Shown: one piece after another, positions 11,625 to 21,349 of the stretch
How the letters are laid out: every line of letters begins with the position of its first letter
Position numbering within the stretch: the stretch's first letter is position 1
Assembly (NCBI RefSeq): GCF_017812015.1
Contig: NZ_JADQTN010000001.1
Coordinates: 1,466,501 to 1,530,500, forward strand
Origin: Pontixanthobacter sp. CEM42
Lineage (GTDB): Bacteria > Pseudomonadota > Alphaproteobacteria > Sphingomonadales > Sphingomonadaceae
Length of the DNA: 64,000 nt
Direction: 5' to 3'
Made by a program: the position numbers and the translations under genes
Notes under the pieces: model-generated
Seen by the model: the letters and a program-made list of their open reading frames with translations, nothing else
What the model was told of the DNA's origin: nothing
Database searches by the model: none

Positions 11625-12278
11625 CTACGCAACCAAAGAATAGCGACGCGAGCCCGGAGGGCGGCACATCCGCTTATTGGCCGTCGTTTCCTCACCGCTC
11701 ACGATAATAACATCTGTAACCGTAATACATTGGAGCCCAGTCGTGTCAGCGTCTTCACTGGCGACTACGGTTGACGTACCCGAGACATCATCCCGCGTGC
11801 TCGATTTCCATGATGCTGTAGAGCCGACTTCGGCTGATCGCATAGGTGCCAATGGCGCCTCTTCCGGGTTTTCTTCCTCGTCACTGTCAGTCTCATCCTC
11901 TTCGATCACTTCGACGCTGCTTGTCGCGTTCAAAGTTGCCTCGGCTGCGAGCTTTTGCTCTGCCGGATCCAAACGGCAGGCGATCTCGGTGGTCAACTGA
12001 TCAGAGAATGTACTGACCGGAACCCAGCGCGAAACGCCCGTCTCGCGCGCTTTGCTGCGTACTGTGCGCCCAAAAATCCCGCCGAGAACTTTGCGTGCAG
12101 TGGACTTCTTCTCGCCCGCCTCGCATCCAGTATCCTTCGCAGTCGCATCGTTGGTTACATTGCGAACATCGCGCGGTATCAATTGGCGAAATTGCGCGCT
12201 GACAGGTGCAGCCGCCATTGCACAAACAGCGAGGCTGGCAATTGCCAGTCGTAAACTGCTTCGGGCTGATCTAATCAT
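11625..12278 (-). CDS. Hypothetical secreted protein
   Basis: A signal peptide ends at APVSAQ (about residue 29). The 217-residue protein has an acidic low-complexity stretch in the middle (EEDETDSDEEENPEEA) and a C-terminal module LQCITVTDVIIVSG...KRMCRPP. That module recalls the paired-cysteine end of rickettsial-type RT0821/Lpp0805 surface proteins, where C-x-T-V and a later R-x-C-R-x-P are conserved. The assignment is tentative. It is cotranscribed with the ClpP-like gene, and both probably act in the envelope. Confidence 0.65.
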   Translation of the reverse strand: MIRSARSSLRLAIASLAVCAMAAAPVSAQFRQLIPRDVRNVTNDATAKDTGCEAGEKKSTARKVLGGIFGRTVRSKARETGVSRWVPVSTFSDQLTTEIACRLDPAEQKLAAEATLNATSSVEVIEEDETDSDEEENPEEAPLAPMRSAEVGSTASWKSSTRDDVSGTSTVVASEDADTTGLQCITVTDVIIVSGEETTANKRMCRPPGSRRYSLVA

Positions 12279-12347: not shown

Positions 12348-14687
12348 TTAGTTTTCCGGCACACCCTGCCTAAGCTCCTCCAGCCACACATCGGCCACGG
12401 CGTCACTTGGTGCACGCCAATCTCCGCGTGGGCTTAAGGCACCGCCCGCGGACACTTTCGGCCCATTGGGCAAAGCGCTGCGTTTGAACTGACTGAACTG
12501 GAAGAAGCGCCAGAGAAATTTCTCTAGCCAGCCGCGCAGGGTGACGAGATCATATTCGTTCTTCTTCGCTTCGGGGAAGTCCGCAGGCCATAGGCCCAGA
12601 CCCGCATCCTTCCACGCGTGATACGCTAGGAACGCGACTTTGCTCGGTTTCTGACCGTAGCGGATGATGTGGTGCAGGAAGAAGTCGTTCAGCTCATAAG
12701 GACCGATCTTGCTTTCGGTACTTTGCATCCCGCCTTGCTCATCCGCCGGGACTAATTCGGGCGAGATTTCGGTATCTAGGATCGCCTGTAAGACGTCATC
12801 GGTCTTGGCATCGAATTGACTGGTTTGGATCGACCAACGGATCAAATACTGAATCAGCGTTTTAGGCACGCCAGCGTTGACGCCGTAATGGCTCATTTGG
12901 TCTCCGACACCATAGGTGCACCAACCCAGTGCTAACTCGCTAAGATCGCCCGTTCCCAGCACAAAGCCGTTATGCTGACCCGATAGGCGGAACAGATAGT
13001 CTGTGCGCAGACCCGCCTGCACGTTCTCAAACGTCACATCATAAACGGGCTCGCCGTCTGCAAACGGATGACCGATATCCTCAAGCATCCGCGTGGCGGC
13101 GGGGACGATATCGATTTCCTTAGACGATATTCCCATCGCTTCCATAAGCTTCCACGCGTTGGACTTGGTGTGATCGGAGGTGCCGAAGCCGGGCATGGTG
13201 AAGCCCTTGATCATTTTGCGGTCGAGCCCGAGCCGATCGCAAGTCTTCGCGGCCACGATCAACGCATGCGTGCTGTCGAGCCCGCCCGAGATGCCGATCA
13301 CGATGCTCTTGGCCTTGGTCGCGGTCAGGCGCCGCATCAAGCCGTCGACTTGAATGTTGAACGCCTCGTAGCAATCCTCGTCGAGCTTGTTTGCGCGGTT
13401 GGGGACGAAGGGGAACCGGCGGATTGGGCGATGCAGACCGATATCTCCACCGACCGACTTGTGTTCAAAACTGACGGTACGGAACCAGTTTTCCGGGCAA
13501 TCCTCCGCTTCTGCCGCATCGTTGAACGTCTGGTTGCGCATCCGCTCAGACAGCAAGCGTTCGGTGTCGATGTCGGCAATGCTCAGTTCTGCATCGAGGG
13601 TGAAACGCTCGCTTTCAGCCATCAGATCGCCGAATTCGTAAATCATCCCCTGCCCATCCCAAGCGAGATCGGTGGTGCTTTCCCCATGCCCGCTGGCCGA
13701 ATAGGCATAGGCAGCGATGGCGCGGGATGATTGCGCGCGGGCCAGCATGTGCCGCTCATCCGACTTGCCGATGGTGACATTGGACGCGGAGAGGTTGGCT
13801 AAGATCGTCGCGCCCGCGAGCGCGCCCAAGGTCGACGGCGGATTGGGGGACCAATAATCCTCACAGATTTCGACATTGAGTTTGAAACCTGGCATGTTCG
13901 ATGCGGCAAAAATCAGATCTGTGCCGAACGGAACTGTTCGACCTGCCACTGTAATTTCCTGCCCCTGAACCGAGCGTCCATGCGCGAACCAGCGCTTCTC
14001 GTAATATTCGCGGTAGTTCGGGAGGAAGCTCTTTGGAATCACACCCAGCAGCGCGCCTCCCGCAATCACCAACGCCGCGTTGTATATCTTGCCATTCCGC
14101 CTCACAGGCGCGCCAATCAGCAAGACTGGCGAGAGCTTTGTCGATGCCTTCACAATATCACCAACCGCAGCCTCGACTGCGTCCAGCAGTGCACCCTGCA
14201 AATGCAGATCATCAATCGCATAAGAGGACACGCACAGCTCGGGATACACCACCAGATCGACATGCGTGTCATGCGCCCGCTTCGCCTCAGTCAGAATCGC
14301 ATCACGGTTGAACGACACATCCGCAGTGCGAACTTGTGGTGTACTCGTCGCCACGCGAACAAAGCCGTGAGCATGGGCGCTGTAAAAGGGGTGCTTGCTA
14401 TTTGTCTTAGGGCTGCTCATGGCAGTATCTTTCGTGTCAGATTGAACTTCCGGGGCCAAAGAATCAGGGGGCTCGAGCCAGTCTTCAAGAGCGCAAATGC
14501 CCAGTTCGGCGAGACGCTTCTGCACCGCTGCGCGGGCAATCTTGCCTTTGGTTTCCCAGCCGTAGACGGTGCGGCTGGGCCAGGCTTTTGGCTCGCCGTA
14601 GCGCGCACCAAACTCCTCCGCATTGAGCGGTGGGTTATGCGCCTCTCGCCACTCGCGAATTTTGGTACCGGCTAAATGCATAATCAT
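12348..14687 (-). CDS. nadE: Glutamine-dependent NAD+ synthetase with N-terminal XRE-type HTH domain
   Basis: The C-terminal 690 residues are a complete NadE. The nitrilase-type glutaminase domain has its triad at Glu (YPELCVSS), Lys (IPKSFLPNY) and Cys (EICEDYW), about residues 61, 130 and 186 of that part. The synthetase domain has the GISGGLDST P-loop and later TGDLSELALGW. In front, with no stop or frameshift, is a helix-turn-helix module of about 75 residues (TKIREWREA, AEEFGARYG, SRTVYGWETKGK). NadE usually starts directly with the nitrilase domain. An internal ATG at 14420 would give plain NadE, but its ribosome binding site is weak. I chose 14687; 14681 is equally possible. A perfect palindrome lies immediately upstream. 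Confidence 0.93.
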   Translation of the reverse strand: MIMHLAGTKIREWREAHNPPLNAEEFGARYGEPKAWPSRTVYGWETKGKIARAAVQKRLAELGICALEDWLEPPDSLAPEVQSDTKDTAMSSPKTNSKHPFYSAHAHGFVRVATSTPQVRTADVSFNRDAILTEAKRAHDTHVDLVVYPELCVSSYAIDDLHLQGALLDAVEAAVGDIVKASTKLSPVLLIGAPVRRNGKIYNAALVIAGGALLGVIPKSFLPNYREYYEKRWFAHGRSVQGQEITVAGRTVPFGTDLIFAASNMPGFKLNVEICEDYWSPNPPSTLGALAGATILANLSASNVTIGKSDERHMLARAQSSRAIAAYAYSASGHGESTTDLAWDGQGMIYEFGDLMAESERFTLDAELSIADIDTERLLSERMRNQTFNDAAEAEDCPENWFRTVSFEHKSVGGDIGLHRPIRRFPFVPNRANKLDEDCYEAFNIQVDGLMRRLTATKAKSIVIGISGGLDSTHALIVAAKTCDRLGLDRKMIKGFTMPGFGTSDHTKSNAWKLMEAMGISSKEIDIVPAATRMLEDIGHPFADGEPVYDVTFENVQAGLRTDYLFRLSGQHNGFVLGTGDLSELALGWCTYGVGDQMSHYGVNAGVPKTLIQYLIRWSIQTSQFDAKTDDVLQAILDTEISPELVPADEQGGMQSTESKIGPYELNDFFLHHIIRYGQKPSKVAFLAYHAWKDAGLGLWPADFPEAKKNEYDLVTLRGWLEKFLWRFFQFSQFKRSALPNGPKVSAGGALSPRGDWRAPSDAVADVWLEELRQGVPEN

Positions 14688-14689
14688 GC

Positions 14690-14708
14690 AGTATCCCAAA
14701 AGGATACT
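14690..14708. promoter_or_regulatory. Palindromic operator at the HTH-NadE start
   Basis: AGTATCC-CAAAA-GGATACT is a perfect 7 bp inverted repeat ending 2 bp before the ATG of the HTH-NadE gene. That position would block transcription or ribosome access. The HTH domain encoded right behind it is the obvious candidate ligand (inference). Confidence 0.6.
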
Positions 14709-14723
14709 GGTACGCAAGCATCA

Positions 14724-14739
14724 CTTCTAATCTTAGAAG
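14724..14739. promoter_or_regulatory. Second palindrome in the nadE/yghU divergent region
   Basis: CTTCTAA-TC-TTAGAAG is a perfect 7 bp inverted repeat about 15 bp beyond the first palindrome, between the divergent HTH-NadE and GST genes. It could be another operator or a short hairpin; its sequence differs from the first. Confidence 0.4.
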
Positions 14740-17645: not shown

Positions 17646-18632
17646 TCAAGGCGCGCTGCGCGGAATTGATGCCTCAGCTAGGATGAGCGAGAAACGGCCC
17701 TTCTCGTCGGTCCAGCGCTGCATCGGGGTCCAACCCCCAGCGAGCAGCAAGGTAGCTGAGCTACGCTTGTCGAATTTGTGGCTGTTCTCGGTATGGATGG
17801 TCTCGCCCTTGGTCATCACGAAATCGCGACCTGCAACGCTAAATTCCATATCGCGCTGTACTTCCAAATGCATTTCGATCCGGGCAAAATCGTCATCCCA
17901 ACGCGCCACATGACGCAAATCGTCGACCGGGATCGTTCCGTCGAGCTCACGGTTGATACGGCGCGCGAGGTTTAAGTTGAATTCACCAGTCACCCCTGCA
18001 GCATCATCGTAAGCGGCTTCGAGAACGTCGGTGCCTTTGATCAGGTCCATACCGATCAGGAGCTGCGATCCCTCGCCCAAGGTGTCTCGCATCGTCCTCA
18101 GCAAATCTACTGCTGTGCGCGCGACCATATTGCCGATGGTCGAGCCGGGAAAGAAACCAAGCTTCGGCATATCCGCAACGTCATTCGGCAAAGCGACTTT
18201 ACGCATGAAGTCCGCCTCGACCGGATGTACCGGCAGACCGGGAAACTTAGCGGACAAATCCGCCGCAGCCGCGCGCAGGAAGTCACCCGAAATATCTAGT
18301 GGTACATAGGCAGCAGGTTCAATGGCGCGCAACAACAGCGGCGTTTTCACCGAACTGCCAGAACCGAATTCCACCACTGCACGATCTGGCCCGATACTCT
18401 GGGCAAATTCAGCACCGCGCGCGGTAAGTATCTCGGTCTCTGCCCGGGTCGGATAATATTCGGGTATCTGAGTAATATCCTCAAACAATTGCGAGCCGGC
18501 ATCATCGTATAGCCACCGGGCCGGAATCGCCTTTTGCGCCTCCGATAGACCCATCAGTACATCGGCGCGAAACGCGCGGTCGACACCATCTTCGTCACGG
18601 TCAACCAACTCCAAGCCCGAATTGCTGCTCAT
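17646..18632 (-). CDS. egtD: L-histidine N-alpha-methyltransferase EgtD
   Basis: EgtD trimethylates histidine to hercynine with SAM, the first step of ergothioneine synthesis. The 328 residues compare with 321 in mycobacteria. Visible signatures are ARWLYDDAGSQLFEDITQIPEYYPTR in two parts, VVEFGSGSSVKT (SAM motif I) and FFPGSTIGNM. IGMDLIKG and TIHTENSHKF complete the substrate pocket. The ATG at 18632 overlaps the last base of the egtB stop (TGATG), so the two proteins are translationally coupled, giving a two-gene ergothioneine unit. Confidence 0.96.
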   Translation of the reverse strand: MSSNSGLELVDRDEDGVDRAFRADVLMGLSEAQKAIPARWLYDDAGSQLFEDITQIPEYYPTRAETEILTARGAEFAQSIGPDRAVVEFGSGSSVKTPLLLRAIEPAAYVPLDISGDFLRAAAADLSAKFPGLPVHPVEADFMRKVALPNDVADMPKLGFFPGSTIGNMVARTAVDLLRTMRDTLGEGSQLLIGMDLIKGTDVLEAAYDDAAGVTGEFNLNLARRINRELDGTIPVDDLRHVARWDDDFARIEMHLEVQRDMEFSVAGRDFVMTKGETIHTENSHKFDKRSSATLLLAGGWTPMQRWTDEKGRFSLILAEASIPRSAP

Positions 18633-19879
18633 CAAATATCCTTGGCGAGCCGTAGCCCGGTAAATTGCCACCGCTGATGCGGGTAAAAGAAGTTGCGATA
18701 GGTACTCCGTGAATGACCGCGCGCGGTGGCACAACTTGCGCCGCGTAGGACGAACTGCCCGCTCATAAATTTGCCATTATATTCGCCAATTGCACCCTCT
18801 GCGGTTTCGAAACGCGGATACGGCAGATAGGCGCTACGAGTGAACTGCCAGCAATCGCCAAATAGGTCGCTACCACCCAAAGGTAACGGGGCCCGCGAAC
18901 TGTCCAGCTGGTTGCCGGACGCTGGATCGGAATTCTGTGCCACTGCTTCCCATTCAAACTCGGTCGGTAATCGGCGACCTGCCCATGTCGCAAAAGCGTC
19001 AGCCTCGTAATAGGAGATATGCGTTACCGGCGCGCCGGGATCACGTTTTACCCACCCCGCATGGGTGAACTGCTCGGTCTCGTGCCAGTAAAGCGGTGCC
19101 GTAATGCTTTCTCTATTCACCCAGGCCCAGCCATCAGACAGCCACAAAGCGGGATTAGTGTAGCCATTGTCGTCGATAAATTGCTGCCACTCGCCATTGG
19201 TCACCAGTTTTGGCGCAAGTGCGAAAGGGGTGAGCAAAACCTGATGTTGCGGCCCTTCATTGTCGTAGGCGAAACCCCTATTCATTTCGCCACCATCATG
19301 ACCGATCAAAGCAATACCGCCAGGGTGTTGATGCCAAACGTCATCGCCTGATTGCGCGACCTTATGCGTAGCATCCGTAAACATCGCTGGACCGAGCGGG
19401 TTTTGGAACAGCGCATGTTTGATGTCCGTTAGCAGCAATTCCTGATGCTGCTGCTCATGCGCAATACCTAGCTCGACCAGCGAAGTACGCTCGGGATCAT
19501 CCAGCATAGGTGCGATGGCGTGATCGACCGCATCGCGCCATTCGCGGATTTGCTCCACCGTCGGACGCGATAGCATCCCGCGTGAAAAGCGCGCTATCCG
19601 CTCTCCCTCTGCCTCGTAATAGGAATTGAACACGAACGGCCAGCGCTCGTCATGCAAAGCGTAGTTTGGCATGTGATCGCGCAACAGGAAGGTCTCGAAA
19701 AACCAATTCGTGTGCCCCAGATGCCATTTTGCAGGCGAAGCATCTTCCATTGATTGCAGCGTCGCATCGGCTTCGGACAGCGGGTCTAACAGTGCACAGG
19801 TTAGCGCCCGCGTCGCTCGATAGCGCTCAGCCAGACTATCCGCCGGATTGGCGGAAGCGGCGGCATTGGCATTCGGCAC
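18632..19879 (-). CDS. egtB: Ergothioneine biosynthesis sulfoxide synthase EgtB
   Basis: EgtB is a non-haem iron enzyme joining hercynine to a thiol (gamma-glutamylcysteine or cysteine) with O2. The N-terminal DinB-like domain carries the iron ligands: His in WHLGHTNWFFE (about residue 53) and HEQQHQ (about 141 and 145), matching the three-His facial site. The C-terminal part is a formylglycine-generating-enzyme-like fold (GRRLPTEFEWEAVA, then VLRGASCATARGH). Length (415) is normal. The start is GTG 19879. No egtA, egtC or egtE is nearby, so the thiol donor and C-S lyase must be encoded elsewhere. Confidence 0.96.
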   Translation of the reverse strand: MPNANAAASANPADSLAERYRATRALTCALLDPLSEADATLQSMEDASPAKWHLGHTNWFFETFLLRDHMPNYALHDERWPFVFNSYYEAEGERIARFSRGMLSRPTVEQIREWRDAVDHAIAPMLDDPERTSLVELGIAHEQQHQELLLTDIKHALFQNPLGPAMFTDATHKVAQSGDDVWHQHPGGIALIGHDGGEMNRGFAYDNEGPQHQVLLTPFALAPKLVTNGEWQQFIDDNGYTNPALWLSDGWAWVNRESITAPLYWHETEQFTHAGWVKRDPGAPVTHISYYEADAFATWAGRRLPTEFEWEAVAQNSDPASGNQLDSSRAPLPLGGSDLFGDCWQFTRSAYLPYPRFETAEGAIGEYNGKFMSGQFVLRGASCATARGHSRSTYRNFFYPHQRWQFTGLRLAKDI

Positions 19880-19975: not shown

Positions 19976-21349
19976 TTATGCGGCGTCCGCCTGTGCGTGC
20001 CCCGCTTCCATCGTCATCATCTCGGCCAGCAAGAATGCCAGTTCGAGCGATTGCGCGGCGTTGAGGCGCGGATCGCAATGGGTGTGATACCGATCACCGA
20101 GGCGCTCATCAGCAATGCCAACAGCACCGCCCACACACTCGGTCACATCCTGTCCGGTCATTTCGATATGGATCCCGCCAGCATGAGTGCCTTCAGCGCG
20201 GTGGACGGCGAAGAAACCCTTTACTTCACCCAGAATACGGTCGAACGGACGAGTTTTATAGCCGCTATCCGACTTAACGACATTGCCGTGCATCGGATCG
20301 CATGACCAAACAACGGGATGGCCTTCAGCCTTCACGGCGCGGACCAGTTTGGGCAGGCCTGCCTCAACCTTGTCGTGCCCGAAACGACTGATCAGTGTGA
20401 TCCGGCCGGCCTCGCGCGAGGGGTTAAGCGTGTCGAGCAATTTGAGCAGAACATCGGGCTCCATCGAAGGGCCGCACTTCATGCCCAGCGGATTGCTGAT
20501 GCCGCGTGCAAATTCAATATGAGCGCTGCCTTCGAAGCGAGTCCGGTCACCGATCCAGACCATATGTGCGCTGGTGTCGTACCAATCGCCGGTAAGCGAA
20601 TCTTCGCGCGTCAGGCTTTGCTCGTAAGGGAGCAACAGCGCCTCGTGGCTGGTGTAGAAGCTGGTCCGTTGCAATTGCGGTACGGTGTCAGGATCGACCC
20701 CGCAGGCTTCCATAAAGTCGAGCGCCTCGCCAATCCGGTCGGCAGTCAGCGCAAACTTGTCCGCCCAAGGGCTACGGCCCATGAAATCGAGCGTCCATTT
20801 GTGTACCTGCCGCAGATTTGCATAACCGCCGCTAGCAAAAGCGCGTAGCAGGTTGAGCGTTGCCGCCGCCTGCGAATAGGCGCGGACCATCCGCTCAGGA
20901 TCGTTCCTGCGGCGCGCGGAATCGAACTCTATGCCGTTGACATTGTCGCCGAAGTAGCTTGGCAACGTAACGCCGTCTTTCGTCTCGGTGTCGCTACTGC
21001 GCGGCTTCGCGAACTGGCCTGCCATACGGCCAACTTTGACCACTGGCACCTTGCCTGCATAGGTCAGTACAACCGCCATCTGCAGCAGTACGCGGAACGT
21101 ATCGCGGATATTGTTCGGGTGGAATTCCGCGAAACTCTCGGCACAATCGCCGCCTTGCAACAAGAAGGCTTTGCCCTCAGCGACGTCCGCCAAATCGGCT
21201 TTCAAATTGCGTGCTTCGCCGGCAAAAACCAAAGGCGGATAGTTAGACAGGGTCTGCTCCGCATCCGCCAGCGCCTGTGCGTCTTCGTAGCGCGGCAAAT
21301 GCCGTGCTTCGTGCGCTTTCCAGCTATCGGGGGTCCAGTTCTGTGCCAC
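19976..21349 (-). CDS. aroG: 3-deoxy-7-phosphoheptulonate synthase, class II
   Basis: The enzyme condenses phosphoenolpyruvate and erythrose 4-phosphate in the first step of aromatic amino acid synthesis. It is the class II (plant/actinobacterial) type: [16 protein letters not shown] holds the metal-binding Cys. [37 protein letters not shown] and [18 protein letters not shown] also match. The length, 457 residues, is normal. The start is GTG 21349. The gene lies 97 bp upstream of egtB on the same strand, but no tight coupling is apparent. Confidence 0.96.

Follow-up and report, generated by a model that had tools for sequence, protein, structure and literature searches.

Proteins that join a DNA-binding domain to an enzyme are already known as a general kind, and several of them bear comparison with the locus described here. 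In the trifunctional NadR of Enterobacterales an N-terminal HTH is joined to NMN adenylyltransferase and RNam kinase, and this NAD-synthesis enzyme is described as repressing the NAD genes nadB, nadA, pnuC and pncB (PMC12421817). CR.NsoJS138I is reported to carry a small autoregulator, a C protein, in frame with the restriction endonuclease that it controls, both activities being kept; it is an activator that belongs to restriction-modification, with delayed expression (PMC3850674). BzdR likewise has an N-terminal DNA-binding domain on an enzyme fold resembling shikimate kinase, but it is described as controlling benzoate genes, with the loss of its enzyme activity being essential (PMC3602430). 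NAD synthesis is also controlled by NadQ and NrtR, acting as separate proteins, and a NadQ regulon that takes in nadE is reported for Rhodobacterales and Caulobacterales (PMC5343134). In the result lists of our literature search we saw no self-regulation by DNA binding for either an NAD synthetase or a DAHP synthase.

We have analyzed a stretch of 64,000 nucleotides (the window) from the genome of Pontixanthobacter sp. CEM42, in which an HTH domain is fused to NadE. A single stop-free frame on the minus strand spans from upstream of position 14687 down to the stop at 12348. The initial annotation had read it as an HTH joined without interruption to a full-length glutaminase-type NadE, and the frame and its domain matches bear this out. 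The features of the locus are as follows.

12348..14681, minus strand: HTH-NadE fusion gene, conserved start ATG 14681, stop 12348-12350, 777 aa
14472..14681, minus strand: N-terminal lambda/P22-repressor-like HTH domain, residues 1-70, five predicted helices (fold model pLDDT 88, conservation, pN/pS)
14397..14471, minus strand: variable linker, residues 71-95, probably disordered, containing the old NadE start Met (pLDDT <50, own-genus pN/pS 0.61)
13557..14357, minus strand: glutaminase (CN_hydrolase) domain, PF00795
12837..13352, minus strand: NAD synthase domain with SGGLDST loop, PF02540
14418..14420, minus strand: internal ATG close to where unfused NadE starts, perhaps used as a second translation start
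14429..14433, minus strand: GAAAG, weak SD-like sequence 8 nt 5' of ATG 14420
14690..14708, minus strand: operator-like palindrome AGTATCC-TTTTG-GGATACT, arms conserved in 102 distinct fused loci
14712..14717, minus strand: predicted -35 TTGCGT (TTG-N17/18-TA in 100 of 102 loci)
14688..14693, minus strand: predicted -10 TACTGC, overlapping the right arm of the palindrome, with a 6-nt discriminator to ATG 14681 (leaderless)

The NMN adenylyltransferase and RNam kinase domains are absent from this fusion, so it is not a NadR. It differs too in that its exact site occurs essentially at its own gene only. In contrast to CR.NsoJS138I the enzyme is a metabolic one, with a site predicted to block the promoter; in contrast to BzdR both catalytic domains are kept, in the only copy found. 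From the sequence comparisons set out below we think it very probable that HTH-NadE is both an NAD+ synthetase and the repressor of its own gene, acting through a Cro-like HTH of phage type that was captured together with its promoter and operator.

The enzyme part matches PF00795 and PF02540 above their cut-offs, and scores 1052 bits against the NCBIfam equivalog NF002730, for which the cut-off is 473. By these cut-offs the fusion is a glutamine-dependent NAD+ synthetase of the long type, with its activity predicted from the sequence. SGGLDST and much of the CN-hydrolase part are invariant among the 12 fused proteins aligned. The full-length NadE part aligns with 3dla (profile positions 90-769), which we take to be the glutamine-dependent NAD(+) synthetase of M. 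tuberculosis; it is a full-length homologue of the enzyme part but has no HTH. The M. tuberculosis NAD synthetase is an octamer. A search of the genome with the fusion protein gave its own gene as the only match. Since searches of this type do detect an additional, diverged NadE in some relatives (G019 and G050, for example), HTH-NadE is probably the sole NAD synthetase of this genome. The relatives share ATGCA(T/C) and M-H-x-A-G at 14681, and ATG 14687 sits within the predicted promoter discriminator. We therefore place the start at 14681 and not 14687, as M-H-x-A-G is kept and the predicted -10 with its 6-nt discriminator ends there. The distance of 2 bp between palindrome and start given in the initial annotation is correct for ATG 14687, but from the conserved start it becomes 8 bp.

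The N-terminal domain is predicted to form five helices (residues 3-13, 21-28, 36-44, 51-59 and 65-68; pLDDT 88), in the manner of the lambda-repressor-like (XRE/Cro) fold. In a model of the full protein (mean pLDDT 75) residues 71-95 fall below a pLDDT of 50, and NadE follows. The window protein did not reach the Pfam HTH cut-off and no model in the library named its HTH, and Foldseek placed HTH regulators at the top of the matches to the HTH model, all with E values worse than 0.001. A profile built from the wider HTH family matches a transposon-related regulator and the P22 C2 and 434 repressors, all weakly, and stand-alone relatives fall just below the HTH_31/HTH_3 cut-offs (26.6 versus 27 bits for HTH_31 in L137). 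The identification of the HTH thus draws on the predicted five-helix fold, the weak matches to phage repressors and the near-cut-off scores of the stand-alone relatives. We aligned the window protein with 54 of the 70 complete proteins of a named collection, and the region around the recognition helix, S-R-T-V-Y-G-W-E, is nearly invariant in the aligned NadE fusions (53 rows). Within the genus pN/pS is 0.20 for the HTH, 0.61 for the linker and 0.10 for NadE, and across all 12 fused proteins the values are 0.22, 0.69 and 0.23, ratios that are rough because pS is high. The HTH evolves under purifying selection.

The perfect palindrome AGTATCC-N5-GGATACT noticed at the outset is present at 14690-14708. 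It is the single match in the window at up to three mismatches, where 1.14 would be expected by chance, and a 7+7 inverted repeat with a 5-nt spacer within 60 nt 5' of the start was equalled by 4 of 1000 shuffles. Its absence from relatives carrying the fusion had been named as grounds for abandoning an operator; it is present in all 102 distinct fused loci (drawn from 135). The GTATCC/GGATAC core is nearly invariant across them, with near-invariant arms and a variable 5-nt spacer, and the gap to the start is 3-11 bp (8 or 9 in 86 of the 102). A TTG-N17/18-TA arrangement ending 5-11 nt (mostly 6 or 7) before the start codon occurs in 100 of the 102 loci, with N17 in 79 and N18 in 21, compared with 22 of 5100 random places. 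The TA in this count comes from the palindrome itself; the independent promoter signal is the TTG of a TTGC stretch, position -8 relative to the palindrome being T in 101 of the 102 loci. SD-like 4-mers 5' of the start are at background (7 of 102 versus 9%). In Zymomonas mobilis, also a sphingomonad, mapped promoters are reported to have the consensus TTGNNN plus TANNNN, a 17-bp spacer and a 6-bp discriminator being the commonest, and the same work lists 119 leaderless TSS-gene pairs (PMC7566282). With the TTG-N17/18-TA geometry, the left arm falls within the spacer, the right arm overlapping the -10. The palindrome is thus a putative operator laid over a promoter that we infer to be leaderless. 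A further inverted repeat, CTTCTAA-N2-TTAGAAG, lies at 14724-14739 between the nadE -35 and the GST gene, and L003 has what seems to be an imperfect counterpart.

NadE matches were found in 57 of 60 genomes (our own included). Twelve of the loci have the N-terminal HTH and 13 have the same long NadE without it; the remaining matches, at 26-42% identity, are to diverged proteins, most of whose frames span about 550-600 aa. The HTH is carried by 68 of 397 genomes of the family, as 59 NadE fusions, seven fusions to DAHP synthase in one genus and two stand-alone genes. The named collection comprises 76 loci, mainly from Erythrobacteraceae genera or uncultured relatives, all with the HTH and a palindrome at its start; 70 hold a complete frame of more than 740 aa and the other six do not. 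We searched for the exact 12-base core in the 56 more complete of the 59 fused genomes, and in two of the seven with HTH-DAHP synthase. Of the 56 fused genomes 50 have it, and of 36 unfused genomes none, as would be anticipated if, as the initial annotation proposed to check, the palindrome stands ahead of fused genes only. Six fused genomes deviate from the exact core: G175 and G347 by a single core base, and G266, G357, G377 and G416 by carrying ATTATC...GATAAT. The latter four also have a shorter, altered HTH loop and recognition region, FKTQTVFGWE compared with WPSRTVYGWE, so that at these four loci a symmetrical change in the palindrome appears to be matched to a change in the HTH.

The palindrome also seems to be lost together with the domain. 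In a NadE tree of 46 fused and 11 unfused proteins (midpoint-rooted, for drawing only) the fused/unfused label takes six changes. This fits one gain of the HTH and five losses, with six unfused rows lying outside the clade. For the five unfused rows inside the fused clade the best upstream arm score is that of background, 7-8 of 14. The tree and the arm scoring cover 11 of the 13 unfused long NadE loci. The other two, L017 and L023, were handled separately and have best arm scores of 7 and 8 of 14 in gene orientation, with 11 for L023 in the opposite orientation. Joint presence, joint loss and joint change are not expected of a chance palindrome. Together with the overlap of the promoter, these comparisons give strong support to the original idea that the enzyme may bind an operator at its own start. 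Two species of genus g9 differ in the same way, one having fused NadE plus the palindrome and the other unfused NadE without it (G193 and G015), a natural pair for a comparison of expression.

Other exact sites are nearly absent. The 56 fused genomes contain 59 exact-core sites, of which 50 are at nadE, eight in tldD codons and one in another open frame (G023). In tldD (L200-L207; the name was read from the sequence) the core encodes GILKGY in eight genomes, and these copies are a coding coincidence. Near matches at up to two mismatches are not enriched in the window's own genome (68, compared with 118 for a reversed control). We have therefore rejected a wider regulon. The suggestion that the HTH also acts on other genes with the palindrome, such as the divergent GST gene, fares no better: of 75 named loci 28 have a divergent GST homologue no more than 600 bp away, but all 76 have the palindrome, so the palindrome is not tied to GST and we discarded that gene as a co-target. 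We also considered an NrtR-type regulator as a substitute for a lost HTH. In a set of 17 genomes an NrtR-type domain was present in two of six unfused versus none of 11 fused. Over the family, the NrtR-type winged helix (PF21906, which may not catch NadQ) is found in 20 of 397 genomes, of which three are NadE-fused (G095, G347 and G401) and one is HTH-DAHP synthase-fused (G359), and the proposal was dropped.

We suggest the following course of events. A Cro-like HTH would have been captured near the base of the Erythrobacteraceae, bringing along its promoter and operator, and fused in frame with nadE. The oligomeric enzyme could then pair two HTH domains, allowing the palindrome to be bound. 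As the palindrome lies between the -35 and -10 and overlaps the latter, the bound site would be expected to exclude RNA polymerase, and expression of nadE would drop as NadE builds up. The enzyme would thus very probably shut off its own gene once enough of it is present.

The repression proposed here might in addition be gated by a metabolite, which would make HTH-NadE a metabolite-gated trigger enzyme, with deamido-NAD, ATP, NAD+ or glutamine altering the oligomer or freeing the HTH, such that expression tracks NAD demand as in enterobacterial NadR. Fusion to a catalytic protein would provide a direct route, and all three activities of Salmonella NadR are reportedly feedback regulated by NAD with ATP (PMC12421817). 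Yet the sequence carries no sign of coupling, the linker being disordered and variable in length, and as DAHP synthase bears the same kind of HTH, the module seems to be portable and to require no particular ligand; we regard gating as possible but unlikely. Slightly more doubtful is the production of two proteins, a leaderless HTH-NadE and a plain NadE from the internal start at 14420, by which the levels of repressor and enzyme may differ. A linker Met near the old NadE start is found in 74 of the 102 loci, and is preceded by an SD-like 5-mer in 49 of these, as a raw count. The frequency of Met is 0.036 in the linker versus 0.018 in the NadE part (linkers of varying length, 87 of the 102 being measured and the other 15 printed for reading). 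However, the Met is absent in 28 loci and may be a mere relic of the old start.

The remaining possibilities place the palindrome in another role. The fusion might activate its promoter instead of repressing it, and C proteins, small autoregulators that also occur fused to enzymes, are described as activating their own promoters (PMC3850674). The overlap with the -10, and the standard length (17-18) of the spacer in which the site is found, fit occlusion instead, and we consider activation improbable. Still less can be said for the repeat acting in the mRNA as a hairpin just 5' of the start codon with the HTH incidental, even though the window strand would fold well as RNA (z -3.5, equalled by 1 of 200 shuffles). 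Judged by the promoter geometry, transcription would begin downstream of the repeat in 100 of 102 loci, the outer pair 1/19 is often non-standard (AC in 16 of 102 and TT in 15, for example) as is pair 5/15 (GA in 7), and the repeat is missing wherever the HTH is missing. It is just as hard to credit that the HTH is retained merely as an oligomerization or structural domain, with some other regulator binding the palindrome, when the palindrome tracks the HTH through presence, absence, sequence change and two different enzymes.

The second of those enzymes is a class II DAHP synthase (PF01474 in L141), which the same kind of HTH precedes in one other genus of the Sphingomonadaceae. A GGDCAESF motif was read in 13 of 13 fused genomes. 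A different palindrome, TTACCC-N5-GGGTAA, is found at the same place, and the promoter layout is shared in 7 of 7 loci tested. Ten of the 14 genomes of this genus have exactly one exact TTACCC-N5-GGGTAA, in all ten beside the start of the fusion, and the remaining three fused genomes (G272, G496 and G505) have an imperfect site of this type there. In G184, of the same genus, neither the fusion nor an exact TTACCC-N5-GGGTAA was found. Among the HTH-DAHP synthase loci L139-L145 and L274-L276, at least L139, L142, L143 and L145 have a second imperfect palindrome 32-36 nt further upstream. The class II DAHP synthase encoded in the window itself (19976-21349) lacks an HTH. Eight weaker matches examined as other HTH-bearing enzymes proved to be ordinary CI/LexA-like or other HTH proteins.

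Four stand-alone relatives of the HTH (L137, L138, L267 and L291; 73-78 aa) point to where the domain may have come from. All four face an HTH_3 (CI-like) gene on the other strand and are followed by a DUF7146 primase-like gene, with two additional frames in between in L138; they thus occupy a Cro-like position, opposite a CI-like repressor and before replication genes. That at L291:3467-5485, on viral contig IMGVR_UViG_2806310804_000002, is a 76-aa relative of the NadE HTH (51% identity), between CI-like and primase-like genes. Three of the four stand-alone genes share TTG-N18-TA with a 6-9 nt discriminator. None has a strong palindrome; L267 comes nearest to one, with 6 of 7 paired and 71 of 1000 shuffles equalling it, and in the other three it is not significant (155 to 185 of 1000). 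A tree of the HTH, poorly supported for the most part and with long branches leading to the stand-alone rows, joins the DAHP synthase form to L267 (99/98), away from the NadE form. Beyond the family the best match in the order has E 1.6e-6, and class-level matches (5e-9 to 1e-8) were read as CI/LexA-like repressors and set aside. Two HTH queries gave no match in a plasmid collection, and a phage collection gave matches listed only at E 6e-3 to 7e-3. Among viral contigs one locus matched HTH profile A3, the same locus again in a repeat search, and none matched A2.

The HTH therefore resembles the Cro/C2/434-type repressors of temperate phages in fold, in weak profile likeness and in size, and through the place of its four stand-alone relatives opposite a CI-like and before a primase-like gene. 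HTH-NadE is unlike these repressors in being fused to an enzyme, outside any phage switch. A phage origin with two separate captures is likely. We lean towards a broader reading, by which temperate phages of sphingomonads repeatedly donated cassettes of early promoter, operator and Cro to biosynthetic enzymes, NadE in the Erythrobacteraceae and class II DAHP synthase elsewhere, each capture making of the enzyme, in a single step, a leaderless and self-repressing one-gene circuit with essentially a single exact target site in its genome. If true, this would clearly exemplify a central metabolic enzyme that governs its own expression by binding DNA, with no regulator beside it. Capture of a phage switch would have brought this about twice, with a different enzyme and a different operator each time. 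With about 100 natural variants, matched operator changes and five inferred losses, the system would lend itself readily to studies of how HTH specificity evolves and of the passage from enzyme to regulator. Self-repression might also explain the control of nadE in these bacteria, few of which have the NrtR-type domain (3 of 59 fused genomes).

Two further observations concern the neighborhood of the gene on the minus strand of the window. Downstream of nadE, a 217-aa protein (11625-12278) has a start resembling a signal peptide, and gave no Pfam match. At 17646-19879 are two overlapping genes, presumably an ergothioneine-type pair of a histidine methyltransferase-like and an EgtB-like protein.
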